Source: Diphasiastrum complanatum (Eukaryota; Streptophyta; Lycopodiopsida; Lycopodiales; Lycopodiaceae). From it: DNA of 64,000 nt. This document shows, one piece after another, positions 33,861 through 62,769 of this stretch. Each line of letters opens with the position of its first letter. Position 1 is the stretch's first letter. The notes beneath the pieces were generated by a model, which searched no databases, was not told where the DNA came from, and saw only the letters and a list, made by a program, of their open reading frames with translations. The translations under genes and the position numbers were made by a program. The stretch is taken from NCBI GenBank assembly GCA_029204225.1, contig CM055097.1, forward strand, positions 59,944,073 to 60,008,072. The letters are read 5' to 3'.

Positions 33861-34571
33861 TTGAAATTGTACTTATGTTGTTGTGTGGTCATTATGATAA
33901 CTCCTAATGATTGCATGCCAGTTATATGGTCGACAATCGATTCTCACGATTGGCCTTATGTTGATGAATTGATCATCAAATTGACAAAATTCCAACTCGT
34001 CAAAGAGATTACGATGAATATGAAGCCAACATTCGGATCCAAACGTGTTTACACTAGTGTCAGCGTGTCTGTCGTTGTATTTGTTGCCATATTTAAAACA
34101 ATACCATTTAGAAAAACAAATACATTATGGGTATGGAAAGTGACGGAATCCTCATTGTTGGACAATGTATTTACTTCTTGGGACTCACAGAATGTAGATC
34201 ACAAAGGTGATTTAATAAGGCGTGATATTTGTCGTGAGACGATGACAATAAGATATCACATTGCACGCCAAACGTGCTCCTTCAGTTTCATTTATAGGCG
34301 GTTCAAGTTTGCTCACGGTCGATGGGATAGCTTGGATGCAGAGATGAGACATCAAGAATTTGAACTACCCATCCATATGCCAAATGATGAAGTGCGGGAA
34401 GTCTGTGTTAATGGTGAATGGAGTCTGGAAGATGTACGGGCTATGGTGGGTTTAATATATGCTGATGTGCCCACAAATTTTGTGTTCACTATCAACGGAC
34501 AAACCGTAAGTGTAAACAATAAACATGCTTCTAAATTTTGTAAATGGTTGTTGAACACATATATAAAATAA
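33861..34571 (+). CDS. Unrecognised 236-codon ORF
   Basis: An intact frame with balanced composition and a good Trp/Asp/Glu content, unlike the surrounding compositional ORFs. Segments include DSHDWPYVDELIIKLTKFQ, WKVTESSLLDNVFTSWDSQ, YRRFKFAHGRWDSLDAEM and a C-terminal FTINGQTVSVNNKHASKFC. No signal peptide is evident; the start at 33861 is the first ATG, and the first 12 residues are Cys-rich and may not belong to the protein (an acceptor AG just downstream could be the real border). It lies 570 bases upstream of the histone H3-like gene, on the same strand, and may belong to the same large element. I know no family for it. Confidence 0.5.
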   Translation: MKLYLCCCVVIMITPNDCMPVIWSTIDSHDWPYVDELIIKLTKFQLVKEITMNMKPTFGSKRVYTSVSVSVVVFVAIFKTIPFRKTNTLWVWKVTESSLLDNVFTSWDSQNVDHKGDLIRRDICRETMTIRYHIARQTCSFSFIYRRFKFAHGRWDSLDAEMRHQEFELPIHMPNDEVREVCVNGEWSLEDVRAMVGLIYADVPTNFVFTINGQTVSVNNKHASKFCKWLLNTYIK

Positions 34572-34967
34572 ATTTTAATATTGAAATGGTGGTGTTTGGT
34601 TTTGCAGATCAGGAGACGCGCAGAAAAACACCAAAAGTGTGCATCATTTTTAGATTCGGTCACCGTAAAAATACATGAACTATAAGTTGTTCTTATGTAC
34701 TAGCTTTAACTAATAACATTGATCTATTCGATGGGATTTCATCAGCGATTTGGTTCTATCATTTCCATGCTTGTTAGGGCATTAGCTATGGTTTGGTTTG
34801 GTATGCAATTGCAATGTAAATGTTTTGACTAGATAATTTCTATAAGAAATTGTTGATAACATGTTTTGGAAATGTATAGAATTTCATTGTGTATATATTT
34901 CTTACTTTACTATTTTTGAACAATCGAGAGATCTTTTTGGAATGCTTGCTATAATTGGAATGGCACA

Positions 34968-34977
34968 CTATATAAGG
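34968..34977 (+). promoter_or_regulatory. TATA-box candidate for the H3-like gene
   Basis: CTATATAAGG lies 165-175 bases upstream of the ATG at 35142 and is a good plant TATA-box match. Its use is inferred. Confidence 0.45.
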
Positions 34978-35141
34978 GTGTGTGGGTCCCCATTTTGCCA
35001 TTTCATTCTTAGTGTCAAAGAGTTTCCTTTGTTTTTCATAGGTTGATATCATCCTGCTATGCTCACACAAGTGCAAATTAGTGTTGTTATTGCAATTCCT
35101 ATACATTAGTACTCTATTATATCCACATGGCGACCTAGTTT

Positions 35142-36035
35142 ATGGCACGTACGAAACAAATAGCAAGGAGGAATCCAAGGGAAACACCGTTATTGCACCA
35201 AGCCGCTTTAGAAGCAATAGAAGCACGGGAATGGGGCTCGAGGAGTAGGAGTAGGAGCAGAAGTAGTAGCATTGAACCTGTGGCGGTGGAAATGGACAGA
35301 ACTCGAGATGAGTAGGCAGCAATGGATGAGCTTGGGGAAGTTCCCATGGATTGTGAGCTGGTACAGGGGCAGGAGCAGGGGCAGGAGCAGGTGGCAATGG
35401 AAGAGCTTAGGTAGCAGCAAGCGGCAGCAACAAATACCTCTGGATGAGCAACATATGGCCAAAGTAGTAGACGATGTCCTGCTGCATGATTTTGGTGTGA
35501 GGTCAGTGCTAGGAAGCCCCTCTCCAACACAGAGCCAACACACGCCACTCAGACTTTTCTGGACAGTGAGGTAGCTACGTCCGGGCTTATTCCCAATGAT
35601 TTCCTTGGGATCTTCGACGATCAAGGTCCTCAGGAACAGGTGTCTCTTGATGGCTTTTCGGTTGGTTCATCAGGAGTCGGAGCAACTTCAGGGGACTCCA
35701 CTCCGACACAATCACTTGGACATGTGCAAGGGCCTGTAATGGGGCCCATGATGTCCTTGCTCGTCAGCTCGGACCAGACACGCCACGCAGAAGCCGTTGG
35801 GGAGGCTTCTCATCAAGTCACACCCACATCACGGCCGATCAAAGAGATCATGGACGAATTCTCCCTTGGGCTCAGAATTACGGACGAGGCTTTTTCGGCT
35901 ATTCAAGAGGTGGCAGAAATGTATCTAACAAATTTGTTTGAAGACTCATTTTTGTGTGTTGTCCATTGTAAGAGACTTACTATACTTCCAAAGGATATGT
36001 TGTTGGCAAAGAGGCTGAGACATGAGAGGAATTAA
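35142..36035 (+). pseudogene. Histone H3-like gene with long inserted linker, decayed
   Basis: The frame starting at the ATG at 35142 begins MARTKQIARRNPRETP, matching the canonical H3 tail (ARTKQTARKS). The same frame at its far end, codons about 231-297, gives a complete divergent H3 histone fold: alpha-1 and L1 (RPIKEIMDEFS, LGLRI), alpha-2 (EAFSAIQEVAEMYLTNLFED, then FLCVVHCKR) and L2/alpha-3 (KRLTILPKDMLLAKRLRHER), as in canonical H3. Between them lie about 200 residues that are not H3: an Arg/Ser-rich patch, Glu/Gln repeats and a Ser/Gly/Pro-rich stretch. In-frame stops near 35313, 35412 and 35442, and a frame change covering about 35440-35540 (where the adjacent frame reads LDEQHMAKVVDDVLLHDFG), show the copy is broken. 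H3 tail position 9 is Arg instead of Lys, position 6 is Ile. A canonical H3 is 135 aa; this would be about 297. CENH3 also has a divergent tail and fold but no such linker. The neighbours suggest that it is carried by a mobile element. Confidence 0.8.
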
Positions 36036-36194
36036 AAACGATGTACTCCAAATTTTGAGATAATAATATCAGATCATTTTTGTCATCCGACTCTCTTGAA
36101 TTATTGTGTGAATTCATTTTATGATGAAATACAGTTTTTTGTGAATGTTTTTGGTTTTCTAAATTTTCTATTAGAGTGTATATCAAATGCTGAT

Positions 36195-36412
36195 TTTCAC
36201 GCAAGGGCGCGGATGGGGGCCGTTTGACTGGGTCCCCCCCCCCCCCCCCCCCCCTTGCATGATTTGCATGCAAGGGCGCGGACAGAGGGCGTTTGACCGA
36301 GTCAAACGGCCCCCCTCCGCGCCCTTGCGTGATTTTCACGCAAGGGCGCGGAGGGAGGCCGTTTGAAATTCAAAATCATGCAAGGGCGCGGAGGGAGGCC
36401 GTTTGAAGTTCA
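36195..36412. repeat. Palindromic GC-rich repeat cluster with C tract
   Basis: A unit of about 30-45 bases, GCAAGGGCGCGGAGGGAGGC followed by CGTTTGA, occurs at about 36201, 36270, 36337 and 36380 in direct orientation, and at about 36300-36325 in inverted orientation. A run of over 20 C residues (36234-36254) lies inside it. It separates the H3-like gene from the 3' end of the minus-strand gene at 36543. Confidence 0.85.
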
Positions 36413-36542
36413 AAATGACACTTTAATGCCCTTAAATTTAGGTGATTGGTAGAAATTTTCATAACCTATCATAATGAATGAAATTTTTGAATGCATGTAG
36501 TCTGAACTGAAAAATATTTTTGAAAAAAAATCACATTTTCCT

Positions 36543-37982
36543 TTAAAATTCTTTTACATTAGCTAGTGCCTCTAATAGTGACTCTAATCTATTTTCTAGT
36601 CCTATTGTTGGCTTCATTAACTCCGATGCTAACTTAGCAGCATCAGCATGCTCCTCATAAGGTCCAACCACTGAGGCCAGAAGTAATTTGGACTCAAACC
36701 TCGGGCAGAAGTCCTGCAAGATAGCGCTCCTTCGTACACAATAGGCCTCTGGTGCAGTCTGTGAAAGTGGAGCATCTGCAAGATGCTTTGATAATGCTTT
36801 GCACTTGACCAGCTCAGTGGGCCCATCAAGACTATACTCATTGCTGAAACAGAAGATATAGTTGTCAGGGAATTGTCCAATGTAATATGCCAGGGATGCA
36901 TCTGGCCTTTGCTCTATTTGGTCCTCACGAGAACCTCCACTTTCCATTGCAAAACTGTCAATTTCCACCGCATACTGCAATACATTATATAAGAATGTTA
37001 TAATTACAATGAACAGCTTCAGAAATGGGAATAAGCATGGACGAGAATATTTGTTGACAAAGAACTTGTCTGAGATCCTTTATCCTCATTCTCACTTTTT
37101 GCAAGGACAATTCCGTGGCCTCTATATAGAATCTCAGTTGTGCAAATCGGTAATTTTCCAAATTGTTTATGCTCAATCTCCGGTGATTGCAGAGTCTTCA
37201 GTTCACACAAAGTTTTTGCCAGAGCTTGCTCAGTAGTATCTGCGTCATTTCCAATCAGCTGTCGAAATGTATTGTCTGGCACTGAGTGGTCAAAGGTGTT
37301 GGTGCCATTTTCCAATTTCAATAATCATGCCAACATCTCATCCTCTCGTAAGCCGAGGATATGTTGCAAGTCATGCAGAAACAAATACTCTTTCCCATTG
37401 ATTATCACTGGGGCAAGGTCACGTATTCGCAGCATGTGATCGAAGTCGTCTACGTCCTCCGGTGGGGCAGATGTTGATGCAACTGAAGCCATCTGCCGTG
37501 CAAGCTCTGCTTCCTTCACGGGTGTTAATTTCTCTTTTGCTTCTTGCTTTTCCATTTCGCTAACGTTCACGCTAGGATCATCTTTGTCTTCAGCGGTATT
37601 TGTAGGAGATTCATTCAACAAAAAAATTCACACTAATTTCACCTGACAAGAACTTGTTTCCTACACTTTTGAGATTAAAATCTACTTGTTGAACGCGCGT
37701 TAACTCGAAAAAGTACTCGTTCCCCAAGTGGCTAACAAACCTGTTGAGTTGGGCAGCAAAAGCTCTATCTCCTTTCCATATATATGTTAGCAAATTATAT
37801 GGAATCCAAGAAATATCGTAGCCAGGTATTCTTACCGAGTAAGGCATCAAGTTCTCTTCTATATACTCACTTACATACCTGAAATCATCACTATTCGCAT
37901 GTAGAGTTGCTAGGGTATCTATCCTGGCAGTGAACATAACATAGATGTGATCTATTTGATCAGCAAATGTTGTGTCGGCCAA
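36543..37982 (-). pseudogene. Unrecognised spliced gene (copy M2), paralogue of 39667-41008
   Basis: Open stretches on the minus strand are 37982-37611, 37621-37325, 37321-37019 and, after a clear TATTGCAG acceptor at 36975, 36974-36543. Protein-like blocks include YVSEYIEENLMPYSVRIPGY, a Lys/Glu-rich linker, VIINGKEYLFLHDLQHILGL followed by REDEML, and YAVEIDSFAMESGG followed by ASLAYYIGQFPDNYIFCF. The block ending REDEML matches VYYINNDVYFTTADLCKFF with HEDEF in the gene at 39667-41008, and the block after the acceptor matches the same place in that gene. The two genes are therefore diverged paralogues with a shared intron position. The frame breaks show that this copy is decayed or has unrecognised introns. 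The xYLFLHDLxxxLG pattern is loosely like KilA-N/BRO-type domains, but I do not assign that family. Confidence 0.5.
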
Positions 37983-37984
37983 TA

Positions 37985-39357
37985 GATTACTTGCTGAGAT
38001 ACATTGTCACATTCTATGATATAACCTATGAAAAGGTGAATGGCAAAATAATCATAGTACTTAAGTTAGATGAGTCAGAAATTGTGAAAGGGCTAAAGAT
38101 GGAGAGGGTTAGTATAACTCTCATGAATGTTGCTCTATCACAAACAGAGAACCAAGAAGATTTCAGATTCAATGTCCAGTCAGAAAATGATATATGGTGG
38201 TTGGCAGCGTTTCAAGTAACTAGCCTCATTATTACAATACATTCATTGAATAGTATTAATACATTGTAAACTAAGTCTGATTAATTCTTTGGACAGGTGC
38301 TAAAAGAGGATCATGATATACTATCATGGATATTCTCAAGGACATCTTATCCTAGGATCATCAAGGACCATATGGATGGAGGACTTCTCAATGTTCCAGG
38401 AGTTGGAAACTTCAATGTTGAATGGCACTTAGCAGGTGATTTGAAAACATTGAAATGTATGTATAATGTCTCTCACGGTGCTTCATCAAAACGCCCTTGT
38501 TTGTACTGCATGAAAATGGTAAAAGATGTAACTAGGAGTACATGAACTACTAGAGAATATATAGATCCAAACTGGAAGCCTGTGCTGCCTATCCCCTTAA
38601 AAAATGTGCATGTTTGCACTCTTCATGCAGAAGTTAGATTAATAGAAAAGATCTTCATATAGTTTTTGCTTGGAATACTAAGCCAGCATCATTAGCAAAG
38701 GAAGCTATCTCTCGATTAGAAGATGTTGTATCAAAAGCAGGACTCCATAAAGGACATGTCAAAATTCAAGAAGATGAAAAGCTTTCAGGAAAGAATGGGA
38801 ACATGCCAACTAAGCCAAGCATAGGAGGAGCAAAAGCACGTCGTTTCCTATCAAATCATACTGGTAAGGCTTCTAATATTCAACACTCAGTCTGGACAGA
38901 TATTATTGTTGCCACTCAGGACTTCGAGAAAGATGGCAAAACCAGAGTACTAAAAGTTGATGTATGGAAAAAGCTTGATAGTATGATTGCTATTTTAAGA
39001 AAAGAAAAATACTCTAATATTGATAAGAAAGCTATCCAAAGGAATTTTCATATATATTTAGATCCAAACATAAGACTAACATTATGATTTTGACATATGC
39101 AGCACATACTAAGAGATCATACAACATTTTTTGCAAATACATATGGAAGCTTGAGTGTATGGTCATCACAAGGGATGGAGAAGTCACACTGGCAAGCACG
39201 AGCAGCATTTCATCAAAATACACAACATGGAGGAACCCATAAAAAACGAAACTACATTTGTCAATTGTTTCAGTGGTTTTACCATAGAGTTCAGATTCAA
39301 CATATAACAAAGTCCACACAATACAACAAGTTTAGAAAAGCATGCAAGTTTATATAG
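37985..39357 (+). pseudogene. Transposase-like gene, RNase H-fold type, decayed
   Basis: Exon 1 (to 38215) reads KIIIVLKLDESEIVKGLKME and RVSITLMN, a plausible first catalytic Asp (codon 38069-38071). An 81-base intron (GTAACT...GGACAG, 38216-38296) keeps phase and leads to VLKEDHDILSWIF, then EWHLAGDLKTLKCMYNVSHG, ASSKRPCLYC and LKNVHVCTLHAEVRLIEKI. After a frameshift near 38660 the frame continues (38700-39087: GGAKARRFLSN) and then to GSLSVWSSQGMEKSHW, where the Glu codon (39178-39180) is a good candidate for the catalytic Glu. The order D ... zinc-like CxxC ... LHxxxR ... W/QGxE with a basic helix resembles RAG1/Transib and related eukaryotic transposases carrying an insertion domain. In-frame stops near 38543 and 38658 make this copy inactive. 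It lies between the two paralogous minus-strand genes. The superfamily is not assigned. Confidence 0.5.
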
Positions 39358-39666
39358 GAAGAGAAAATTAGATGATTGCTGAGTAGAACATTGTCATCAA
39401 ATCATGACATGTTGAGAATTGCTTTGCAAATTCATTAAACAAGAGAGGAGAAATACTCAATGTAAATGTATTGATTGTATTATACCAAAATACAAAGTGT
39501 CAACTATTCATCATCAGATCTTGTATCAGATTCTATGGCAGTATTGTCATGAAGAAATTCTCTACTAGCATATGCATCTAATAGATGTGCATTATCCTTA
39601 TTTCCACTAAGCTCAATATAAGTGGAATACAATGAATAATGGGAGATCCTTAAAGGAACATTCCCA

Positions 39667-41008
39667 TCAGTTCAGCCTAAAATGTTCAAAACATAAATTG
39701 ACAAAAATGATCTTATTTGGCTTAACAAATTTATGTCCTCCTAGGTAAAATGATAAAGCTTTAACTGCCATTATAAGACTCTCCCCGACTGGGCTCAGCT
39801 TGGAATGAGCAATACAAATCTCATTCTTCAGGAAATGCCTAAGATAGTGGCCCAGTCCACTGTCCCTCTGGAATGAGAATGTGTGTTGTCTGAAACCACC
39901 TCGTCTCACAGCAAAATCATCTACTATGAGAGCATCCTGCAATAGGAATTATGTTAGCAAAAACACATTCGGTGATTGAAAACATTCTAATGCAAGGAAG
40001 TTTAAACACTTACACATTCTTCATCATCAACAGCAACCAAATCAGGATGATCAATATATTGACCACGTACTGAAGTGGAATCATCAGTGAAATGCATTAA
40101 TGATGGATGAGGGAAGCCCATCTGGGATTGAAATGCCGTGAATTCTTCATCGGATGGTCTGCCTCGCCCATCCTCAGCTATATTTGATAAAGTCTTAGTT
40201 AGGCATTCTTCACCGGTCATAAGTCCCTCCTCATCATCAAAATCAATACCATCAACAAAGTCATCTGTTTCAAAATCTACAATGTCGGAGAATTTGTGCC
40301 GGATAATAAACATAGAAACTCGTCTTCATGATAGTCAAAAAATTTACATAAATCAGCAGTAGTAAAATATACATCGTTATTAATATAATACACAGACAAA
40401 TTGAAAAGACATTTCGACTCCTTTATAGGGTTGGATTCATCATCAGATGTATTTTGGCCAATAAAAGAATCTCGGAGAACATCAGTATTTACATCAATAA
40501 AGTCACTTTCTTTATAAGGAGTGTCGATAAGAAAGTGACTGATATCCTTAATAGCTGACTGAACAGAGGATGATGCAAAAGGAGGGTTTGCAACAAAAAC
40601 TTCCTCATCATCTGGGATTTGAACTAACAAGAAAAGTACGAAACCACTATGATATTCAACCAATCGACATTTCTTGTTGCAATACGGACACATTGAACTA
40701 CTTTTGAAAAGATCAAACAATTTGGTGAACATTCTATCCAGTCTATGTCTGAAAGCTGGGAAGAAATGAACAAGATCAGTATAATGCATGTACTGGAGTG
40801 GACCTATGGAGAAAATAGACTTACTAAGTATATCTTTGAATCTAACATAATGTTCATAAAATACGTCAGAATTTGGTTGTGCAGTCCTGAAAACATGTAG
40901 ATATAGCCTGAATAGACTGTGGAAGTAGTCTAGATTTTCAGTATTCCCAAATTCACTAAGAAATGAACTCTAGCGTGAATCTCGTGAGGACCCTGAGGAA
41001 GAGGCCAT
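39667..41008 (-). pseudogene. Unrecognised spliced gene (copy M1)
   Basis: The best start is ATG at 41008 (ASSSGSSRDSR follows); one TAG stands at codon 13 and then the frame is open to 40277. Blocks: LDYFHSLFRLYLHVFRTAQ, a CPYCNKKC zinc-ribbon-like pair near 40690, an acidic/Ser-rich region, VYYINNDVYFTTADLCKFFD with HEDEF. After a frameshift near 40310 an acidic segment (40313-40014) ends in DDEEC at a perfect GTAAGT donor. A 77-base intron (40013-39937) ends in TATTGCAG, and the next exon reads DALIVDDFAVRRGG and FQRDSGLGHYLRHFL, to a stop at 39667. Gene M2 has the same intron position and matching exon starts. The product could be a DNA-binding protein of the same mobile element as the transposase. 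Function unknown. Confidence 0.5.
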
Positions 41009-41966
41009 GGCAGTAACGTGAATATTGCACTTGTGCGCGAGGGAGAATTGAAACAAAACTAATAATAAGATGGCGCAAAAGAGGGATATGTACGACAGAC
41101 AGATACCAAATATCACACATGTGCGCAAGTAGGCATCGTTGCAAGCAAACGAACAAGAATGCACGCACACAAGAGCGATATGCCACGAATTTCGAGAACG
41201 GAAAAGGTAAAAAATTAATCGGTTTTCGTGCCACTAAATTTTTGCACTATACTATATACGATCAATCCAATCTCCATGCTTGTATGCTTGATTCAAATTT
41301 GGAAATGCCGCTCATTTTTCATTCCAATAGGTAATTGGCGCTCATATTTCCATTCTCGTGGACGCGCTTCCCAGGAAGTTGGGAGATGGAGTACAAGCAA
41401 AAAGAAAGAGAAACAAATTATTATCTTACAATCTCCAAAGTTCAAGCCATAAGGCTTGAAAATTTGGCTTTCAACTTCTTAGCTATGTTTATTTAAACAT
41501 AGTTTGTAAGCTACGAATCTTGAAAGTGAACTTAGTGTGGTTAGAAGAATAAAACCCTCTTGGTATACTTCCTTAGACGTACCTCTCTCTTCCCCCCTCT
41601 CTGTACCTGCAGATCTCCTAAGCTAGGAGAGGGGCTGTGCTAGTACGTAGAAGATGGAAGGGAGAGAATAGATTGAGGTAAGTTTGTTAAATCTTTGGGG
41701 TCCATGGGCCATGTGGCATGAGGTGGACCCACATGGCTAGAAAGGCCTAGAAGGGACAAATGGGGCCTTTCTTGGGCCCCAACTATCCTTTTTGGATGAG
41801 GGTGGAGAGGAGCTTTGGGGAGGGGGTAAAAGAGGTACGTTCATTACCTTTCCCTCATTCTCCCAATTTGTTGTAGAGTCTTATTGCTCTCAAGTTGGTT
41901 ATTTCTTGAGGCCTTGTGCACTAGTTTTTTCCTTTTTGCGGTTTTTACACCGTAGCTCTCCGTTTT
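41009..41966. other. Intergenic stretch
   Basis: No gene that I can support. Probably includes the upstream region of the minus-strand gene starting at 41008. Confidence 0.4.
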
Positions 41967-50294: not shown

Positions 50295-50904
50295 ATGGAT
50301 CTTGTAAGGACCAACAGCGTTGCGAAAGAATTCAAAGTTGGATTGAAAGATATCCAACGATGGTGTTCGTCAGCGGAACCGAGAATCACACGGTTACAGA
50401 GAAGTCACCCCTCCTGCCTCAACCGAGAATCACACGGTTAAGGAGAAGTCACCGCCTCAAGCAGATCCACGACCAAAACAAGCGTACCCTCTGTCTTCAA
50501 TGAAGAAAACATTTGGAAACATCGTCATAAGGGTTGTGGGAGCAGGCGTGCTGGGCCTCCCTTATACTTTCATGCGCACAGGCTGGCTCACATGATCGCT
50601 GGTTTTGGTAATCATTGGCTATGCTTGATATTATTGCTTGATGCTTTTGGTTAGAACAAGAAAGAAGCTAGACACAGAAGGCAGGGTAGGCATCGCCACC
50701 TTCAGCGACCTGGGCTTTCAATGCATATGGCAAGGTTGGACTGGCAGTGGTGGATTTCACAATGGTTCTGTCACATGGAGGTTTCTGTGTGGGCTATCTC
50801 ATCTTTATTGGAGAAAAAATTTAGCATCAAGATTATCAAGTTTTGACGGTCAATCACCCAAAAAGTCCCCTGGCGTAGAATATACAGGGCGTGGGTTGGA
50901 TGAG
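50295..50904 (+). pseudogene. AVT3-like vacuolar amino-acid transporter, 5' half
   Basis: From ATG 50295 there is a short hydrophilic N-terminus, then after a 44-base tandem duplication (50378-50465) the frame beginning MKKTFGNIV at 50500 shows VGAGVLGLPYTFMRTGWL, the first transmembrane helix of the amino-acid/auxin permease family (Aa_trans), and CLMLLVRTRKKLDTEG and IATFSDLGFQ, as in plant AVT3/ANT1-type tonoplast transporters. Two TGA stops (near 50594 and 50628) and a frameshift near 50760 follow, after which VLSHGGFCVGYLIFIGEK is seen in another frame. In Arabidopsis this family is intronless, and this copy also shows no introns. The gene is cut at 50904 by an LTR; the 3' half resumes at 63129. 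Confidence 0.85.
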
Positions 50905-51745
50905 TGTAGCACAGGCATCCCAAAGGGAGCCGGGAACCACGACTTAGCTTCCCAGCCTTCAACTCTTGACATGCAAACCCACTTGACATACAAGCAGCCA
51001 ACTCGCCAACAACGATCAGACTTAACCAACTTGAAGTTCCGAAAACCAACATTGAGATCCAACCTGGCGCCATGCCAGATCGGGGGTCCCGACGTGGGTG
51101 ACTTCCCTCCAAGCAAGCCGCCCGACATACATTAAACTTAACCAACTCGAAACTTCGTCACAAACGAGTAACATCCATTCCAAGCAAGCGGTTTGACTTA
51201 CATCAGACTTAACCAACTGAAAGCTTCGTCACGAGCGCTGGAAGCCAACCTGGCGCCACGCCCGACTGGACAGCCATAAACAGGTAACATCCACCCAAGC
51301 AAGCCATCCGACTCAGCCGACAGGTTAGAGCCCGTTCCCCAAGAGCTAAACCCATTCACGTTCATGCAAGGCACACTCAGAACCACAAGCCGCGACAGAT
51401 ATGGAAACAACCAGTTCCTGGACCAAATGGTCCCGACAGCATACTGCTGGCGCCACGGACCGAATGGTCCCGACGGCATACCGCCGGCGTCCCGGGATAT
51501 GACCCTCAGCTATGTGCCAAGTTAAAAATTTTGAAAGCGGCCTTACAACTGGCGCTTTTACCGAACACTGAAACCCAGAAGGTAATCAGAGTCAGTTTGA
51601 GAAAAATCCCACTTTATTGATAAATCTGAGAAGGTTACATTTCAAGTGTGTGACCGACCCTAGTCTCCGGGGCGCTAGCATGCCAAGGCGAGAGCCATGA
51701 CAACATTCCAGCAAGGGAGGCTGAGACTTGGTTGGAGCTCGCCCT
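50905..51745 (-). repeat. LTR C, part 1
   Basis: Minus-strand LTR sequence from its 3' terminus (TGTAGCACAGG at 50905) up to GAGCTCGCCCT (51745). The missing remainder of the same LTR is found at 62770-63128, on the other side of element A. The 5 bases before it (ATGAG) and those after part 2 (ATCAG) may be a target-site duplication with one change. No internal region of C exists, so C was a solo LTR, or nearly so. Confidence 0.8.
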
Positions 51746-52986
51746 AGCGCAGGCATCCCAAAGGGAGCCGGGAACCACGACTTAGCTTCCCAGCCTTCAA
51801 CTCTTGCCATCCAAACCCACTTGACATACAAGCAGCCAACTCGCCAACAACGATTAGACTTAACCAACTTGAAGTTCCGAAAACCAACATTTGAGATCCA
51901 ACCTGGCGCCATGCCAGATCGGGGGTCCCGATGTGGGTGACTCCCCTCCAAGCAAGTCGCCAGACATACATCAAACTTAACCAACTCGAAGCTTCGTTAC
52001 AAACGAGTAACATCCATTCAAGCAAGCGGTCTGACTTACATCAGACTTAACCAACTGAAAGCTTCGTCACGAGCGCTGGAAGCCAACCTGGCGCCATGCC
52101 AGACTGGACAGCCATAAACAGGTAACATCCACCCAAGCAAGCCATCCCACTCAGCCGACAGGTTAGAGCCCGTTCCCCAAGAGCTTAACCCATTCACGTT
52201 CATGCAAGGAACACTCAGAACCACAAGCCGCGATAAATATGGAAACAACCAGTTCCTGGACTAAATGGTCCCGACAACATACCGCTGGCGCCACGGACCG
52301 AATGGTCCCGACGGCATACCGCTGGCGTCCCGGGATACGACCCTCAGCTATGTGCCAAGTTAAAAATTTTGAAAGCGGCCTTACAAATGGCGCTTTTACC
52401 GAACACTGAAACCCAGAAGGTAATCAGAGTCAGTTTGAAGAAAATCCCACTTTATTGATAAATCTAAGAAGGTTACATTTCAAGTGTGTGACCGACCCTA
52501 GTCTCCAGGGCGCTAGCATGCCAAGGCGAGAGCCATGACAACATTCCAGCAAGGGAGGCTGAGACTTGGTTGGAGCTCGCCCTGAGTGCAACCCGCACTC
52601 CCCTATAGTATTGGTGTGATTCGGCACCCCCCCTCATACCAAGCACTCTACCCAAGCTGCTAAAGCACGTTTTTCTCTCTCTAGGATTTTTTCTTTCTAG
52701 AAAGTCATTTTCTCTCTCTAGATTTTATTGATCCCCAGGCTTCCTTTAATCATGCCTAGATCGTGTGAGGTGATTGCACATCGATCTGAGCTCTCTGGAC
52801 TTCGCTAGAACCGATCAAAGATTTTCAGCCATAGGAACTTGGCGCCAGCTGGATTCTGGTCACAGTGGCGCCGGGAGCGGCGCCAGCACCGTTGGCGCCG
52901 GGAGCAGCAGGGGCGCTGCTGGCGCCGGGGACATAGCTGGCGCCGACGGCGCCGGAAGTAAAGCTTGTAAAGGTAGCTTTACAACA
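51746..52986 (-). repeat. 3' LTR of element A
   Basis: Runs, in plus coordinates, from AGCGCAGGCATCCC to GGTAGCTTTACAACA. It contains the largest GGCGCC cluster of the window (about 52863-52960). The polypurine tract abuts at 52987-52999 (reverse complement of AAGGTGGGGTGGA). Confidence 0.9.
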
Positions 52987-54638
52987 TCCACCCCACCTTT
53001 ATAAAATCTGATGTCCTCATCAGATGTCAGATTAAAGTAAAGGTGTCTCCCAATTAAAATAACTATACATTTAAGCTACTTGGCACAGTACTCAATTTAC
53101 TGGCCACTTTTTATGAACATTGAAGCTGGCACACCACAAGTCGAAGGCTCAGCTCTTTGTACTGAAAAATTACATAACTTGAAAATATATCTTTGTCTGG
53201 GAAAAGCGTAGATTTGATATCGCTTTCGTAAAACTCGAGAACCTTATTACCTGGTGACAGAGGCCTTTCTTTGAAATGTTCGCCCCTGTCGCTTCTGACT
53301 TTTGACTTTGGAACTCCTTTGAGCTCCTGATTTGTCCTTGATGCACTTTGTGTTGAGCTCCCTGAGCTCCAGGTTTGTTCAGTTCCGCACAGGTATCAAG
53401 GCTCCCTGAGCCGAAGGATTTATCGTTTGATTGTCCACTTTATGGTCCACTCCGTGCCTTGTTGCTTCTGCACCTTGATTTCTCTCCTTGTCTAAGCCTG
53501 ATCTTGATACTTTTCCATCTTGGCTCTTTAAGGTAGGCAAAGATTGAGTACTCCGCAATGCACCTCTCACTTAGCTTGAAGTAGCTCTTTGAATCAGCCC
53601 AAATGTAACCATTGACCTCGTGGAAAGCCAAAGGGTCGCACCAGTTTGATCCGCATCCGAACTATCTCTTCGCGTTTGTTTGAAGGACCATGTCCGTCGC
53701 GCAAAACTTGACTTTCACAATTCCATCACTGGTTAGTTGTCTCACAGTCAAAACAAGAAGTGTACATCGAGCTTGGCTTCAAGTAGCTCTCTTTGAATCA
53801 GAAACATGCACCCAGAGTTTGCACTAATCCGATCTCAACGCGAACTGTCCCTTAGCGTCCGTTCGAAATACCAAGTCTCTCATGCAAGACTCAACTTTCA
53901 CAGTTCCTTCATTGATCAGCTGCCTTACAAGTAACACAAGCCAGCGTACTCATATGTTTCCTCATCATTGCTGGTCCAGAGAAAGCCTATAACAAACTTT
54001 CCTTTCCACAACAAAAACTTGTCAACTTATTAGGTCCAAAGTTCGCCAGTCTCCTCGTGTGAGTATGGCTAGGTCACCTTGAATTTGCCCCCATTTTGAT
54101 CAACTTTCATTCAAAATTTGCCCCAAGAGAGAGATGTGTGTGATAGTTCCCCCTCCACTTAATAAATCAGCTGATCGGACTAAGAGTAGAGTTCTTCGGA
54201 CAAAAAGCCTTTCCAACACTTTGCTTCCCATCTGCTAGGATTATGGCTCGATCCAACTTCTTGCCAATCTCTGAAGGGGATCCTAGTCCTTTCCCCTTTG
54301 AGGAAAAACCCAACTGATACTGGATATCACCCATGCTCAGTGAGTTCCAGTTCCGAAGGTGGCCGTCCCAAAATGAAGACCAACTGCTATAGAAGATCTC
54401 CCCTGAAATTGCCCTTTCCAACTTTTGACTTCCTGCTTGCGTCTGGTGGGGGTTGTCGCAAATGAAACTAACCCAAGAAACAGGCTAGCCATCCATCCTT
54501 TGCAAAAATTGAGTCATTTCGTTGTCGTTCACGTGCCAGTCCTTGAACTGCAAATCCGCCGCACAGATTCTGGATATCGCCCATGTTCAGTGAGTTTCAG
54601 TTCCGAAGGTGGCCGTCCCAAAATGAAGACCAACTGCT

Positions 54639-55878
54639 TGTTGTAAAGCTACCTTTACAAGCTTTACTTCCGGCGCCATCGGCGCCAGCTATGTCCCCGG
54701 CGCCAGCAGCGCCCCTGCTGCTCCCGGCGCCGGCGCATCTCCCGGCGCCACTGTGACCAGAATCCAGCCGGCGCCAAGTTCCTATGGCTGAAAATCTTTG
54801 ATCGGTTCTAGCGAAGTCCTGAGAGCTCAGATCGATGTGCAATCACCTCACACGATCTAGGCATGATTAAAGGAAGCCTGGGGATCAATAAAATCTAGAG
54901 AGATAAAATGACTTTCTAGAAAGAGAAAATCCTAGAGAGAGAAAAACGTGCTTTACCAGCTTGGGTAGAGTGCTTGGTATGAGGGAGGGTGCCGAATCAC
55001 ACCAATACTATAGGGGAGTGCGGGTTGCGACTCAGGGCGAGCTCCAACCAAGTCTCAGCCTCCCTTGCTGGAATGTTGTCACGGCTCTCGCCTTGGCATG
55101 CTAGCGCCCCGGAGACTAGGGTCGGTCACACACTTGAAATGTAACTTTCTCAGATTTATCAATAAAGTGGGATTTTTTTTCTCAAACTGACTCTGATTAC
55201 CTTCTGGGTTTCAGTGTTCGGTAAAAGCGCTATTTGTAAGGCCGCTTTCAAAATTTTAAACTTGGCACATAGCTGAGGGTCGTATCCTGGGACGCCAGCG
55301 GTATGCCGTCGGGACCATTCGGTCCCTGGCGCCAGCGGTATGCTGTCGGGACCATTTGGTCCAGGATCTGGTTGTTCCCCATATCTGTCGCGGCTTGTGG
55401 TTCTGAGTGTTCCTTGCATGAACGTGAATGGGTTAAGCTCTTGGGGAACGGGCTCTAACCTATCGGCTGAGTTGGATGGCTTGCTTGGGTGGATGTTACC
55501 TGTTTATGGCTGTCCAGTCTGGCGTGGCGCCATGTTGGCTTCCAGCGCTCGTGACGAAGCTTTCAGTTGGTTAAGTCTGATGTAAGTCAAACCGCTTGCT
55601 TGGAATGGATGTTACTCGTTTGTAACGAAGCTTCGAGTTGGTTAAGTTTGATGTATGTCGGGCGGCTTGCTTGGAGGGAAGTCACCCACGTCGGGACCCC
55701 CGATCTGGCATGGCGCCAGGTTGGATCTCAATGTTGGTTTTCGGATCTTCAAGATGGTTAAGTCTGATCGTTGTTGGCGAGTTGGCTGCTTGTATGTCAA
55801 GTGGGTTTGGATGGCAAGAGTTGAAGGCTGGGAAGCTAAGTCGTGGTTCCCGGCTCCCTTTGGGATGCCTGCGCTACA
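54639..55878 (+). repeat. 5' LTR of element B
   Basis: 1240 bp, beginning TGTTGTAAAGCTACCTTTAC and ending TGCCTGCGCTACA. Its GGCGCC cluster (about 54670-54775) differs in unit number from that of the 3' LTR. Confidence 0.93.
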
Positions 55879-55880
55879 TG

Positions 55881-55893
55881 TGGTATCAGAGCC
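55881..55893 (+). promoter_or_regulatory. Primer-binding site of element B
   Basis: TGGTATCAGAGCC, complementary to initiator tRNA-Met, two bases after the 5' LTR. Confidence 0.95.
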
Positions 55894-55959
55894 GACTGGC
55901 CGGTCAACTATGCGGATCTCACGGAAATGGCCACGGTTTGGGGTTCATCAAGACAACTG

Positions 55960-56360
55960 TTGTGCGAGGTGATGCGCACAGTGTAAGCACGGGTGCGTCC
56001 ACGGTCGGGGTGGTCGGCAGAACGGGGGACTTGATGAGTCAAGGTGCTGCCCTTGAGGTGTAAGCACGGTCAGTTCTCGCGGTTTGGGCCTAGCGTTGTC
56101 TGCACATAGGACGGATGAGGCAAAGTGCTGCCTAGGGAGGTGAAAGCACGGTCTGTACCTTGTGGGGTGCGGGGCGACATATTCGAACTGTACGGGTTAA
56201 CCATTGATACAGAGATGCTGCTCGAATTCGGGTGTAAAGCACGGGTGGTTAGCTGCCGGTGCGGGATAGCTGCCGATCGTTTAGCTATAAGGGCTATCGA
56301 CCAAAAAGTGGTGGGGCGTGACTGAGGCAATGTGCTGCTTAATGGTGAAAGCACGGATAG
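55960..56360 (+). repeat. Imperfect internal repeats with GTGAAAGCACGG core
   Basis: GTGTAAGCACGG or GTGAAAGCACGG, mostly preceded by a GTGCTGCC-like box, occurs about five times (near 55981, 56058, 56140, 56232, 56345). These lie just after the primer-binding site, where a packaging signal would be expected; that role is inferred. Confidence 0.7.
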
Positions 56361-56628
56361 TTGGAGGGGTGTCCTATGTGGGCTGATTCCGTGATCGATT
56401 TGTATGGGCGCGGCTAGGCAAAGGTCCGTTGGCAGGACCATCTCAAAGGGGGACCTTGTCTTTGTTACTTGTTAGTAAACCTGCCTGAGTGTCTTACTTG
56501 TACGTATTCGTGGTGAGTCTTAGTACTCGTGCTTTGCCTGGTTTGCATGATTGCTTGTGATACAAGGAGCTGATGGCTCGAGAAGGAACCTTTTCTTTTG
56601 AAGGCTGATACCATCAAACAAAGAGGAC

Positions 56629-57125
56629 TACAGAATCTGTGGGGCGGATTTGCAGTTCAAGTACTCACACGTGAACGACAACGAAACGACTCAATGTTTG
56701 CAAAGGATGGATGGCTAGCCTGTTTCTTGGGTTAGTTTCATTTGCGACAACGCCCACCAGACGCAAGCAGGAAGTCAAAAGTTGAAAAGGGCCATTTCAG
56801 GGGAGATCTTCTATGGAGCAGTTGGTCTTCATTTTGGGACGGCCACCTTCGGAACTGAAACTCACTGAGCATAGGCGATATCCAGAATCTGTGCGGCGGA
56901 TTTGCAGTTCAAGCACTCGCACGTGAACGACAACGAAATGACTCAATTTTTGCAAAGGATGGATGGCTAGCCTGTTTCTTGGATTAGTTTCATTTGCGAC
57001 AACGCCCACCAGACGCAAGCAGGAAGTCAAAAGTTGGAAAGGGCAATTTCAGGGGAGATCTTCTATAGCAGTTGTCTTCATTTTAGGACGGCCACCTTCG
57101 GAACTGAAACTCACTGAGCATGGGT
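56629..57125 (+). repeat. Tandem duplication of about 250 bp in element B
   Basis: The block starting ATCTGTGGGGCGGATTTGCA at 56634 recurs at 56887 (ATCTGTGCGGCGGATTTGCA) and both continue through GGATGGATGGCTAGCCTGTT to GAAACTCACTGAGCAT. Element A has the same pair, split by the B insertion (54425-54640 and 59715-59910). Confidence 0.9.
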
Positions 57126-58452
57126 GATATCCAGTATCAGTTGGGTTTTTCCTCAAAGGGGAAAGGACTAGGATCCCCTTCAGAGATTGGCAAGAAGTTG
57201 GATCGAGCCATAATCCTAGCAGATGGGAAGCAAAGTGTTGGAAAGGCTTTTTGTCCGAAGAACTCTACTCTAAGTCCGATCAGCTGATTTATTAAGTGGA
57301 GGGGAACTATCACACACACCTCTCTCTTGGGGCAAATTTTGAATGAAAGTTGATCAAAGTGGGGGCAAATTCAAAGTGACCTAGCCATACTCACACGAGG
57401 AGACTGGCGAACTTTGGACCTAATAAGTTGACAAGTTTTTGTTGTGGAAAGGAAAGTTTGTTATAGGCTTTCTCTGGACCAGCAATGATGAGAAAACATA
57501 TGAGTACGCTGGCTTGTGTTACGTGTAAGGCAGCTGATCACTGAAGGAACTATGAAAGTTGAGTCTTGCATGAGAGACTTGGTATTTCGAACGGACGCTA
57601 AGGGACAGTTCGCGTTGAGATCGGATGAGTGCAAACTCTCGGTGCATGTTTCTGATTCAAAGAGAGCTACTTGAAGCCAAGCTCGATGTACACTTCTTGT
57701 TTTGACTGTGAGGCAACTCACCAGTGATGGAATTGTGAAAGTCAAGTTTTGCGCGACGGACATGGTGCTTCAAACAAACGCGAAGAGATAGTTCGGATGC
57801 GGATCAAACTGGTGCGACCCTTTGGCTTTCCACGAGGTCAATGGTTACATTTGGGCTGATTCAAAGAGCTACTTCAAGCTAAGTGAAAGGTGCATTGCGG
57901 AGTACTCAATCTTTGCCTACCTTAAAGAGCCAAGATGGAAAAGTATCAAGATCAGTCTTGGACAAGGAGAGAAATCAAGGTGCAGAAGCAACAAGGCACG
58001 GAGTGGACCATAAAGTGGGCAATCAAACGATAAATCCTTCGGCTCAGGGAGCCTTGATACCTGCGCGGAACTGAACAAATCTGGAGCTCATGGAGCTCAA
58101 CACAAAGTGCATCAAGGACAAATCAGGAGCTCAAAGGAGTTCCAAAGTCGAAAGTCAGAAGCGACAGGGGCGAACATTTCAAAGAAACGCCTCTGTCACC
58201 AGTTAATAAGGTTCTCGGGTTTTACGAAAGCGATATCAAATCTACGCTTTTCCCAGACAAAGATATATTTTCAAGTTATGTAATTTTTCAGTACAAAGAG
58301 CTGAGCCTCCGACTTGTGGTGTGCTAGCTTCAATGTTAATAAAAAGTGGCCAGTAAATTAAGTATTGTGCCAAGTAGCTTAAATGTATAGTTATTTTAAT
58401 TGGGAGACACCTTTAGTTTAATCTGACATCTGATGAGGACATCAGATTTTAT

Positions 58453-58466
58453 AAAGGTGGGGTGGA
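58453..58466 (+). promoter_or_regulatory. Polypurine tract of element B
   Basis: AAAGGTGGGGTGGA immediately precedes the 3' LTR, as required for plus-strand priming. Confidence 0.85.
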
Positions 58467-59714
58467 TGTTGTAAAGCTACCTTTACAAGCTTTACTTCCG
58501 GCGCCATCGGCGCCAGCTATGTCCCCGACGCCAGCAGCGCCCCTGCTGCTCCCGGCGCCAACGATGCCGACGCTGCTCCCGGCGCCACTGTGACCAGAAT
58601 CCAGCCGGCGCCAAGTTCCTATGGCTGAAAATCTTTGATCGGTTCTAGCGAAGTCCTGAGAGCTCAGATCGATGTGCAATCACCTCACACGATCTAGGCA
58701 TGATTAAAGGAAGCCTGGGGATCAATAAAATCTAGAGAGAGAAAATGACTTTCTAGAAAGAGAAAATCCTAGAGAGAGAAAAACGTGCTTTACCAGCTTG
58801 GATAGAGTGCTTGGTATGAGGGGGGGTGCCGAATCACACCAATACTATAGGGGAGTGCGGGTTGCGACTCAGGGCGAGCTCCAACCAAGTCTCAGCCTCC
58901 CTTGCTGGAATGTTGTCATGGCTCTCGCCTTGGCATGCTAGCGCCCCGGAGACTAGGGTCGGTCACACACTTGAAATATAACCTTCTCAGATTTATTAAT
59001 AAAGTGAGATTTTTTCTCTCAAACTGACTCTGATTACCTTCTGGGTTTCAGTGTTCGGTAAAAGCGCCAGTTGTAAGGCCGCTTTCAAAATTTTAAACTT
59101 GGCACATAGCTGAGGCTCTTATCCCGGGACGCCAGCGGTATGCCGTCGGGACCATTCGGTCCGTGGCGCCAGCGGTATGCTGTCGGGACCATTTGGTCTA
59201 GGAACTGGTTGTTTCCATATCTGTCGCGGCTTGTGGTTCTGAGTGTGCCTTGCATGAACGTGAATGGGTTAAGCTCTTGGGGAACGGGCTCTAACCTGTC
59301 GGCTGAGTGGGATGGCTTGCTTGGCTGGATGTTACCTGTTTATGGCTGTCCAGTCTGGCGTGGCGCCATGTTGGCTTCCAGCGCTCGTGACGAAGCTTTC
59401 AGTTGGTTAAGTCTGATGTAAGTCAAACCGCTTGCTTGGAATGGATGTTATTCGTTTGTAACGAAGCTTCGAGTTGGTTAAGTTTGATGTATGTCGGGTG
59501 GCTTGCTTGGAGAGAAGTCACCCACATCGGGACCCCCGATCTGGCATGGCGCCAGGTTGGATCTCAATGTTGGTTCTCGGAACTTCAAGTTGGTTAAGTC
59601 TGATCGTTGTTGGCGAGTTGGCTGCTTGTATGTCAAGTGGGTTTGGATGGCAAGAGTTGAAGGCTGGGAAGCTAAGTCGTGGTTCCCGGCTCCCTTTGGG
59701 ATGCCTGCGCTACA
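58467..59714 (+). repeat. 3' LTR of element B
   Basis: 1248 bp with the same ends as the 5' LTR. It has an ACGATGCCGACGCTGC insertion-like variant within the GGCGCC cluster where the 5' LTR reads GGCGCATCTCC. Confidence 0.93.
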
Positions 59715-60442
59715 CTGCTCCATAGAAATTCTCCCCTGAAATGGCCCTTTTCAACTTTTGACTTCCTGCTTGCGTCTGGTGGGCGTTGTCGCAAATGAAA
59801 CTAACCCAAGAAACAGGCTAGCCATCCATCCTTTGCAAACATTGAGTCGTTTCGTTGTCATTCACGTGTGAGTACTTGAACTGCAAATCCGCCCCACAGA
59901 TTTTGTAGTCCTCTTTGTTTGATGGTATCAGCCTTCAAAAGAAAAGGTTCCTTCTCGAGCCATTAGCTCCTTGTATCACAAGCAATCATGCAAACCAGGC
60001 AAAGCACGAGTACTAAGACTCACCACGAATACGTACAAGTAAGACACTCAGGCAGATTTACTAACAAGTAACAAAGACAAGGTCCCCCTTTGAGATGGTC
60101 CTGCCAACGGACCTTTGCCTGGCCGCGCCCATACAAATCAATCACGGAATCAGCCCACATAGGACACCCCTCCAACTATCCGTGCTTTCACCATTAAGCA
60201 GCACATTGCCTCAGTCACGCCCCACCACTTTTTGGTCGATAGCCCTTATAGCTAAACGATCGGCAGCTATCCCGCACCGACAGCTAACCACCCGTGCTTT
60301 ACACCCGAATTCGAGCAACATCTCTGTATCAATGGTTAACCTGTACAGTTCGAATATGTCGCCCCGCACCCCACAAGGTAAAGACCGTGCTTTCACCTCC
60401 CTAGGCAGCACTTTGCCTCATCCGTCCTACGTGAAGACAACG

Positions 60443-61358
60443 TGTTGCGCCGGCGCCTCAAAGGGCGCTGGGACTTGAGCGGTTTCCCCAACACGCGCTT
60501 AAGTCTAACATTCATCCATCATGCACTTACGTAAAAGCCAACTCAGAAACGTAACAAGCCATTCAGACTTAAGAAAACTGGAATCCCAACCAACCCGAAA
60601 GCCAACTCAGAATCCGTCCCCAAAAGGTAACCAAAGGCAAAGACAAGCCACACATGAAACCCAAGGCATAGTGGTCGCCAAACTGACCAATTGGCATAGC
60701 GGCAAGCCGGATGTCGATGACAGGGACCCTTAGGCGCCAGCGACACAAAAAGGTTGTAGTAAGGGTCCTTCCACTTGGACCAGTCCCGAAGGCGAAACCG
60801 AAATGGTAATCATCCCCAAGGATCAACTTTATTAGATTTGGAAGAGGTTACATTCATACATAGACTGACCGGTCTCGGGGCCACCAACACGTGCTGGGCA
60901 TTGTGCCTGGCTCGTGCTGGTAGAGAGAGCTGAGACCTGGCGACTGGATTCCTGGCGCTGGTTGAGCTGCCCAAGTTTCTGTCTGCCGGACTCCCCCTAT
61001 AGTTCTGCTGTGATTCGGCGCACCCCCTCTGGTTTGAAACATAGTGCTTTCTGGTAAAGCACGCTTTTTAGGACTTGGTTTTTATTTTGCTGATTAAGCC
61101 TGGCAAGCCTGGCAGAATCAGTCTGGCTCCCGGACATGGGTCCCGAGAACCGTCCCGGCGGCCGAATCAACCTGCTTTCCTGACTAGGCCATGACTCGAG
61201 CTTCCAGAGCTAGCTCATGACTTTGTGAGTACTTGACTGGCTCACCGCAGGTCGGAGGCTCAGTCCTTGACATTCTAACTTGCTCTGGGACCTTAGGGAG
61301 TGTCACCCCTTTGAGTCTTACAGGGCACGCTGGGTGCACCCAAGTCAGCTTTACAACA
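60443..61358 (-). repeat. Solo LTR of a sister family, TSD CAACG
   Basis: Minus-strand ends TGTTGTAAAGCTGACTTGGG and CCGGCGCAACA, flanked by CAACG at 60438-60442 and 61359-61363. Its inner part is a diverged relative of the A/B LTR (ACTTTATTAGATTTGGAAGA, TGTGATTCGGCGCACCCCCT). The empty site, GACAACGCTAGGCC, is preserved inside element B near 56090 (reverse complement), confirming the insertion. No internal region remains, so unequal recombination between two LTRs is likely. Confidence 0.92.
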
Positions 61359-61564
61359 CAACGCCAGGCCCGAACCGCGAGAACTGACCGTGCTTACACC
61401 TCAAGGGCAGCACCTTGACTCATCAAGTCTCCCGTTCTGCCGACCACCCCGACCGTGGACGCACCCGTGCTTATACTGTGGGCAGCACCTGGCACAACAG
61501 TTGTCTTGATGAACCTCAAACCGTGGCCATTTCCGTGAGATCCGCATAGCTGACCGGCCAGTCG

Positions 61565-61577
61565 GCTCTGATACCAC
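61565..61577 (-). promoter_or_regulatory. Primer-binding site of element A
   Basis: Read on the minus strand TGGTATCAGAGCC, complementary to the 3' end of initiator tRNA-Met, two bases after the LTR end. Confidence 0.9.
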
Positions 61578-61578
61578 A

Positions 61579-62769
61579 TGTAGCGCAGGCATCCCAAAGG
61601 GAGCCGGGAACCACGACTTAGCTTCCCAGCCTTCAACTCTTGCCATCCAAACCCACTTGACATACAAGCAGCCAACTCGCCAACAACGATCAGACTTAAC
61701 CAACTTGAAGTTCCGAAAACCAACATTGAGATCCAACCTGGCGCCATGCCAGATCGGGGGTCCCGACGTGGGTGACTTCCCTCCAAGCAAGCCGCCCGAC
61801 ATACATCAAACTTAACCAACTCGAAGCTTCGTTACAAACGAGTAACATCCATTCCAAGCAAGCGGTTTGACTTACATCAGACTTAACCAACTGAAAGCTT
61901 CGTCATGAGCGCTGGAAGCCAACCTGGCGCCACGCCAGACTGGACAGCCATAAACAGGTAACATCCACCCAAGCAAGCCATCCGACTCAGCCGACAGGTT
62001 AGAGCCCGTTCCCCAAGAGCTTAACCCATTCACGTTCATGCAAGGCACACTCAGAACCACAAGCCGCGACAGATATGGAAACAACCAGTTCCTGGACCAA
62101 ATGGTCCCGACAGCATACCGTTGGCGCCACGGACCGAATGGTCCCGACGGCATACCGCTGGCGTCCCGGGATACGACCCTCAGCTATGTGCCAAGTTAAA
62201 AATTTTGAAAGCGGCCTTACAACTGGCGCTTTTACCAAACACTGAAACCCAGAAGGTAATCAGAGTCAGTTTGAGAAAAATCCCACTTTATTGATAAATT
62301 TGAGAAGGTTACATTTCAAGTGTGTGACCGACCCTAGTCTCCAGGGCGCTAGCATGCCAAGGCGAGAGCCATGACAACATTCCAGCAAGGGAGGCTGAGA
62401 CTTGGTTGGAGCTCGCCCTGAGTCGCAACCCGCACTCCCCTATAGTATTGGTGTGATTCGGCACCCTCCCTCATACCAAGCACTCTATCCAAGCTGATAA
62501 AGCACGTTTTTCTCTCTCTAGGATTTTCTCTTTCTAGAAAGTCATTTTCTCTCTCTAGATTTTATTGATCCCCAGGCTTCCTTTAATCATGCCTAGATCG
62601 TGTGAGGTGATTGCACATCGATCTGAGCTCTCTGGACTTCGCTAGAACCGATCAAAGATTTTCAGTCATAGGAACTTGCCGCCGGCTGGATTGTGGTCAC
62701 AGTGGCGCCGGGGACATAGCTGGCGCCGATGGCGCCAAAAGTAAAGCTTGTAAAGGTAGCTTTACAGCA
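61579..62769 (-). repeat. 5' LTR of element A
   Basis: Starts at TGTAGCGCAGG (61579), next to the primer-binding site, and ends at CTTTACAGCA (62769), with one change from the CTTTACAACA of the other copies. The GGCGCC cluster is reduced to a few units. Confidence 0.88.

Follow-up and report, generated by a model that had tools for sequence, protein, structure and literature searches.

A decayed DNA transposon of a group equipped with its own histone H3-like gene

The window analyzed here, that is, the whole 64-kb stretch of DNA (C6:59944073-60008072 of a 1.74 Gb assembly), contains two truncated transposable elements lying side by side, one of a family denoted A and the other of a family denoted B. 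The principal features are as follows, with positions counted from the first base of the window:

33861..34571, plus strand: remnant of gene N, which is conserved in the A and B elements (open reading frame aligned with A and B copies)
33918..37988, plus strand: truncated, old A-type (A2 subfamily) H3-carrying transposon, recognized by its similarity to the A copies, with neither terminal inverted repeat (TIR) in the window
35142..36035, plus strand: H3-like pseudogene with an H3 tail, a linker, and a partial H3 fold, with four in-frame stops (frame reading)
35142..35264, plus strand: H3-like tail with K4 but without K9 (ARTKQIARRNP), followed by an SR-rich stretch
35811..36020, plus strand: partial H3 histone fold, from approximately the second half of alpha-1 to alpha-3 (Pfam PF00125, E = 5.7e-16)
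36543..37988, minus strand: remnant of gene M of the A-type element (open reading frames 36543-36980, 37325-37621, and 37611-37982)
37983..41247, plus strand: truncated B-type element, internal part only (89-96% DNA identity to copies L014, L015, L018, L026, L027, and L028)
38039..39033, plus strand: transposase-like gene T of the B element, of which the exons are disrupted (A-type T core as tblastn query, E = 7.7e-69)
39667..40789, minus strand: gene M of the B element, a paralogue of the M at 36.5-38.0 kb (open reading frames, identity to B copies, and alignment of the A and B M genes)

The A2 element aligns with the A copies at 65-74% DNA similarity in three blocks (33936-34652, 35841-36046, and 36626-37988), with translated similarity beginning at 33918, and its M remnant retains 52-63% translated identity to the A22 copy. 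The open reading frame of its N remnant returned no Pfam match, and a single-sequence structure prediction of this frame was uninformative (mean pLDDT 34.8). The B piece stops short of the position occupied by the H3 gene in copy L018, and lacks the H3 part and both termini; no A or B terminus was found within five mismatches in the 64-kb window. The juxtaposition of the A2 element and the B piece accounts for the transposase-like gene and the paralogous M1 and M2 genes that the original prediction had described as surrounding the H3-like gene. The genes at 33.86-38.0 kb do belong to the same A-type element, whereas the T reading frames (37.98-39.05 kb) and the second M (39.67-40.79 kb) are part of the B fragment. 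The paralogy of M1 and M2 is real, since each is the M gene of a different element family and the two elements are adjacent. Nested direct and inverted repeats of 0.7-2.9 kb, with 94-98% identity, occupy positions 50897-63138 of the window, where the GC content is higher.

The frame of the H3-like gene opens with MARTKQIARR at 35142 and reaches an H3-like C-terminus at 36035, as had been read from the sequence, but it is interrupted by four stops (at 35313, 35412, 35445, and 35487) and is not a single open frame. The proposed identity as a diverged H3 was borne out by the Pfam Histone model, which matches residues 58-127 of the 131-residue open reading frame at 35640-36035 (E = 5.7e-16; score 59.3 bits, with the cut-off at 26.4), and the nearest solved chains in the PDB are those of histone H3. 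The fold had been described as complete, which it is not. In the window copy, TSRP is joined straight to IKEIMDEF, while in the A2 relatives L031-L036 these points are separated by the last part of the linker, alpha-N, and the beginning of alpha-1, either entire or partial, which indicates that alpha-N and the first half of alpha-1 have been deleted. The window copy of the H3 gene is a pseudogene, and is dead. Over residues 62-131, identity between the fragment and other A2 copies reaches 89%. A second copy, identical over 130 residues, is located 300 kb downstream, at C6:60279642-60280031, and represents either a segmental duplication or an assembly duplicate. On the 3' side of the pseudogene (36191-36366), there are tandem 70-base repeats with long runs of C, which match the A locus L024 in part.

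A search of the genome with the Pfam Histone model recovered 6,325 unscored first-look candidates; among the scored places listed, 13 reached 163-165 bits, like canonical H3, and the others at most 110 bits. Twenty of the listed places with long frames, 13 of type A and seven of type B, were compared over 10 kb each, a sample chosen by high histone score, in which intact genes are over-represented. The H3-like proteins (H3L) of these copies follow two designs. In type A, the tail reads ARTKQTARD, the linker is rich in Q, E, and P, and the fold lies at the C-terminus. The long linker between the tail and the fold noted at the outset is thus a genuine feature, given that copy L009 has the tail, a linker of approximately 290 residues, and the fold (from about residue 323) in a single frame of 412 residues; the other 12 A frames, as extended, miss the tail. 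In type B, the tail (DRRKQTRRD) is followed by the fold, from residue 38, and then by a C-terminal extension of approximately 206 residues, giving proteins of 328-329 residues (L018, L027, and L028).

Both designs belong to the histone H3 family, with Pfam Histone E-values of 3.1e-28 for an A copy and 4.7e-28 for a B copy, and the best 60 of 176 (A) and of 175 (B) PDB matches are all named as H3 forms or "histone domain-containing protein", with no CENP-A among them. They are not canonical H3, however, given the lack of K9 and of the ARKS motif, the presence of a long linker (A) or extension (B), and a fold with only about half of its residues identical to the host H3. The A and B folds share 44 of 88 residues, and match the host H3 at 50 and 49 of the 88, respectively, with one loop 1 residue of B omitted. 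Seven fold residues are common to A, A2, and B but absent from the host H3, including a P-R-A run and an S-F pair, which is in line with a single origin of the three folds, although it is not proof of one. Some of the fold residues common to A, A2, and B, such as those within LIPRAPF and EDSF, are reminiscent of CENH3. The host CENH3 itself was not recognized with an approximate CENH3-like query, which fitted the transposon copies at 48-57% and the host H3 at 69-70%.

In the tail, K4 is retained at all 13 A loci, all seven B loci, and all five of the A2 tails found, three of which belong to the window locus and its identical copy. Position 9 is never K: it is D in 11 of the 13 A loci and six of the seven B loci, G in the remaining two and one, and R in the five A2 tails. 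The host H3 is canonical, with K9 at all eight loci. None of the 20 frames of A and B contains ARKS, the context of K27. The tails of the two families, in their commonest forms, agree at R2, K4, Q5, T6, R8, and D9, and no likeness between the A and B H3L was noticed beyond the fold and these tail residues.

The surmised link between the H3-like gene and a mobile element is upheld by its relatives: these have TIRs and an empty site, their terminus, H3, and T are spaced at fixed distances, and they are dispersed in hundreds of copies. Comparison of copies and of their flanking sequences recovered three elements with both inverted repeats, A21 (8,955 bp), B18 (8,681 bp), and B28 (9,305 bp). The inverted repeats are approximately 30 bp long (CATTAG...CTAATG), and read CATTAGGGCCCTTTTTGGACTCAAAAAG in A and CATTAGAGGAGTTCTCAATATCAAAAAG in B, with small differences between copies; CATTAG.G and TCAAAAAG are common to the ends of both families. 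In five of the A elements (L010, L019, L020, L022, and L024), a palindrome capable of forming a hairpin, GGCCCTTTTTGgactCAAAAAGGGCC, lies just inside the terminus, and none is obvious in B. The A layout is N+ H3L+ M- T- (L021, L022, and L025), and that of B, in the direction of its H3L, is T+ M- H3L+ N- (L018 and L028); the comparison of these five layouts indicates that the order N-H3L-M-T is conserved, while the relative directions differ.

These elements have the features of TIR DNA transposons, that is, inverted-repeat termini, dispersed copies, and a clean empty site. At the insertion of B28, the joined flanks align with copia-like copies (in the window and at L013) with no gap or extra base, and our reading of the open reading frame suggests that this site lies in a copia-like gag gene. 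The second insertion, L055/L056, shows agreement over 7-10 bases to the left of the joint and over the right flank. Among the 16 pairs of termini read, 11 share not even 2 bp outside the ends, two share 2 bp, and three share 3 bp, including L073/L074, in which the end was read by eye; chance alone would give approximately one pair sharing at least 2 bp and 0.25 sharing 3 bp. A short target-site duplication (TSD) may therefore arise occasionally. No target preference was seen in these 16 flank pairs.

Identity between the A and B cores of T is 45-47%, and a set of motifs is invariant in all four of the rows aligned (D10, D105, C125-x2-C128, and H168-x4-H173), with an uncertain last E, at either E175 or E207. 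When 20 open reading frames were scanned against Pfam, only the two H3L frames exceeded the cut-off, and there was no hAT match. In the PDB, T, M, and N found no convincing match, and the T core, which has no Pfam match, also recovered no RAG1/Transib chain; the assignment of a transposase role to T thus rests on its motifs and position. The sub-threshold leads are a chitinase chain for T (E = 0.91, PDB profile search) and, for the second part of N, a PDB chain named NTF2_HH (E = 0.017). The first part of the B28 N (L028:7800-8192, minus strand) gave the best of the sub-threshold Pfam matches, to a TnsA-like endonuclease N-terminal model (E = 0.003, 18.5 bits against 26.5), and an A copy gave no such match. 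An initial impression of a BAH domain in N was dropped, as the Pfam scans contained no BAH match. A limited check for an origin in giant viruses, with the A-type T as the one query against viral contigs, found no relative.

In a recent account of the CMCT clade (EnSpm/CACTA, Mirage, Chapaev, Transib, Plavaka, and ESTA; PMC12730594), the elements resemble the present group in their CA...TG ends (CATTAG...CTAATG here) and in the C(2)C and H(4)H motifs that follow the second conserved D of T. The TSDs described there are of 2-5 bp, however, whereas most of the insertions read here have none, with 0 bp at B28. Given this, together with the lack of a profile match, membership of the clade is not claimed. 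The Spy transposons (PMC4482050) likewise generate no TSD, but they insert inside AAATTT, which was absent from the joint in 12 flank pairs here.

The termini are abundant throughout the genome, with 1,694 places in A (858 + 836 on the two strands) and 2,095 in B (1,026 + 1,069) at up to two mismatches, and none for the reversed controls. A 68-base stretch of the H3 gene, at up to three mismatches, was found at 165 places in A (83 + 82) and at 296 in B (148 + 148), the latter count missing the H3 variants of the other B subfamily, and a 68-base stretch of T, under the same threshold, at 229 places in A (119 + 110) and 935 in B (445 + 490). These H3 and T counts are lower bounds for diverged copies. 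The excess of T places over H3 places, which is most pronounced in B, indicates that many elements may have lost H3L, and the far greater number of termini than of H3 genes implies that non-autonomous derivatives may be common. A stretch of 1.14 kb between two exact A termini (C1:67871296-67872435) is probably one such derivative.

The genes and termini are also linked at fixed distances. Exact 97-base left ends of B number 67, of which 55 are on C1-C23, and 18 of these 55 are followed by an H3 gene of the same orientation 3.3-7.2 kb away (5.2-6.0 kb for 15 of the 18), against an expectation of 0.014; here, H3 was sought 0-9 kb downstream among 95 usable places of the 100 listed (of 296), with duplicated segments included. 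In A, 38 of the 100 listed H3 places (of 165) are followed, at 1.7-3.8 kb, by a T in the opposite orientation, with 32 of these distances between 3.39 and 3.57 kb, where 0.017 would be expected; this comparison was made with 100 listed T places (of 229) at up to 6 kb, and again includes duplicated segments. The exact long B ends are found on 19 of the contigs C1-C23, the listed A H3 places on all 23, and the listed B H3 places on 22. Among 100 listed B termini, all on C1, 28 fall in C1:64.97-66.68 Mb and 24 in 95.0-99.6 Mb, and the A termini are likewise denser near 65-68 Mb of C1. These dense stretches could be pericentromeric.

Between the B subfamilies, the H3L fold has a dN/dS of 0.070 and 0.091, and a second calculation gave 0.08, the lowest value of the seven segments, which shows, at the level of sequence comparison, that the fold has been under purifying selection. 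The other segments have higher values (0.18 and 0.62 in T, 0.26 and 0.27 in M, and 0.44 in the H3L extension, which is less constrained than the fold); the N segment (0.60, with a dN of 0.186) was discarded because it conflicts with a DNA identity of 94-97%, probably through a frame break. Over all 21 B pairs, pN/pS is 0.24. Synonymous change is saturated in all 78 comparisons of A with A2, in which the protein has changed only to a limited degree (mean pN 0.208), and in 64 of the 91 pairs of A with B, for which pN/pS is 0.47. Within families, pN/pS is 0.44 in A, with one pair at 0.60, and 0.40 in A2, values of approximately 0.4 that point to the decay of many copies after insertion. Overall, selection appears to have maintained H3L as the transposon lineage evolved. 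Compared with B18, copies B15 and L026 are mostly 92-97% identical in their outer parts and 80-89% identical over 3.3-5.7 kb of B18 (from M to H3L), a mosaic that suggests the exchange of H3 cassettes between subfamilies; the high dS of the fold falls within this stretch.

The original prediction regarded a mobile element with its own H3 variant as a new kind of interference, which is too strong, as H3-like genes have been reported in fungal hAT transposons (PMC3538342, PMC6710886). In Pyrenophora tritici-repentis, a hAT transposon carries an H3-like gene in 26 copies, with insertions in the tail, which is neither H3 nor CenH3 (Manning et al. 2013, PMC3538342). Like the elements described here, it is a TIR DNA transposon with a transposase, an open reading frame of unknown function, and a diverged H3-like gene. 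That element differs in its fungal host, its hAT transposase, the 5.6 kb of its long form, and the recent origin of its 26 near-identical H3-like copies. The present group has a plant-like genome as its host, a T without a Pfam family, a length of approximately 9 kb, and four genes, and comprises two long-diverged families, in which H3 copies number in the hundreds, the fold is under purifying selection, and TSDs are not consistently present. In Pseudocercospora fijiensis and its relatives, an H3 captured by hAT elements reached hundreds of copies, and five further genomes show comparable events (Dhillon et al. 2019, PMC6710886). This, too, is a DNA transposon that amplified H3 to hundreds of copies, but the captured gene is described there as a housekeeping H3, all of the amplified copies were inactivated by RIP, and the purifying selection refers to the host gene, whereas here, it is the element-borne gene itself that is constrained and remodeled.

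Two other systems are related by their presumed role. Fungal DNA transposons that carry TET/JBP (Kojima 2025, PMC12730594) provide another example of an epigenetic gene present in several transposon lineages and argued to counter silencing, although TET/JBP acts on DNA methylation, and the present gene encodes a nucleosome component. The VANC protein of the VANDAL elements of Arabidopsis (Hosaka et al. 2017, PMC5735166) is likewise encoded by a plant transposable element and counters the silencing of that element, but it is a sequence-specific anti-silencing protein, and not a histone. In short listings of the open-licence literature, no plant or lycophyte case and no other transposon-borne histone was found. 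The kind of element is already known, then, and what looks new is its host, its transposase, its age, its plan of four genes, and the changes in the tail.

Transposon silencing in plants relies on the methylation of both H3K9 and DNA. The most likely mechanism for H3L, which is still a tentative choice with somewhat less than an even chance of being correct, is a nucleosome that escapes this silencing. On the element or close to it, H3L would form nucleosomes together with the host H4, H2A, and H2B; having no K9, such nucleosomes would be unable to receive the H3K9 methylation used by plants against transposons, K4 would still be open to active marks, and the extra region of H3L might bring in partners (N, M, or T) or provide targeting. 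Interference with the host chromatin is plausible from the sequence of the tail, although the loss of K9 could also be one of many tail changes without special meaning. A fuller account, which is a little more speculative again, is that the lineage took up an H3 long ago and rebuilt it to be proof against silencing, with K9 and the K27 context lost, K4 retained, and a family-specific region placed ahead of the fold in A and behind it in B, whereby the element would wrap itself in its own nucleosomes, and H3 cassettes would have been exchanged between elements that are otherwise very alike.

The main rival, which is unlikely but deserves serious attention, is that H3L forms part of the transposition machinery, in which it would bend, mark, or package the ends, or tether T to target chromatin (marked at K4, for example). 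H3L, T, M, and N follow one order in the five copies compared, 38 of the 100 listed A places have H3 and T at a fixed distance, the retained K4/R8 tail could serve as an address, and large family-specific regions are attached to the fold, all of which would suit a cofactor. Against this reading, the 16 flank pairs read show no target preference, and no transposase is known to require its own histone. A broader action, on the host genome at large, appears improbable; here, H3L would be a dominant agent of heterochromatin interference, or a centromere-type H3 that alters the behavior of the chromosomes. The shared fold residues such as those in LIPRAPF and EDSF, which resemble CENH3, and the density of B termini in two stretches of C1 would favor this reading, and targeting of the centromere was once entertained as the main one. 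It was abandoned because the clustering of the B ends on C1 is outweighed by the spread of the long exact ends and H3 genes over the contigs (the exact long B ends and the listed A and B H3 places occur on most of C1-C23). The best 60 PDB matches of each family include no CENP-A, and the approximate CENH3-like query fits the transposon copies at 48-57% and the host H3 at 69-70%.

Capture of a host H3 in a single event of transduplication, followed by its amplification without any function, is even less probable. Fungal hAT elements are known to amplify H3, in one case with the inactivation of all the amplified copies, and here, too, many copies are broken, including that in the window, and T copies outnumber those of H3. 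A passive passenger would hardly be expected to maintain a fold dN/dS of 0.07-0.09 between the B subfamilies, however, or to persist in both A and B with R2, K4, Q5, T6, R8, and D9 in the commonest forms of the tail, when T has diverged to 45-47% identity. An ordinary family of host H3 variants located near transposons by chance can be rejected with hardly any reservation: the window alone could not prove a link with a transposon, but the TIR-bounded copies, the empty site, and the fixed spacing of H3 to the termini and to T are contrary to such an arrangement. The reading preferred overall, that the window holds the decayed remains of one of a group of DNA transposons (families A and B) in which H3L is one of four conserved genes, that H3L is under selection, and that a silencing-resistant nucleosome may be its product, is considered likely as a whole, and its structural part, the existence of an H3-carrying transposon group, is close to certain.

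As natural H3 variants in which foreign regions precede or follow the fold, the H3L proteins would be useful in chromatin biochemistry, and they also carry a warning for genome annotation, as large counts of H3 in such genomes may be transposons. The anti-silencing factors of transposable elements found in print (TET/JBP and VANC) either target DNA methylation or bind to specific DNA. A transposon-borne histone without K9 that is maintained by selection, if this is indeed the case, would operate on the very substrate of silencing, and it would be possible to test whether a parasite dictates the nucleosomes on its own DNA.
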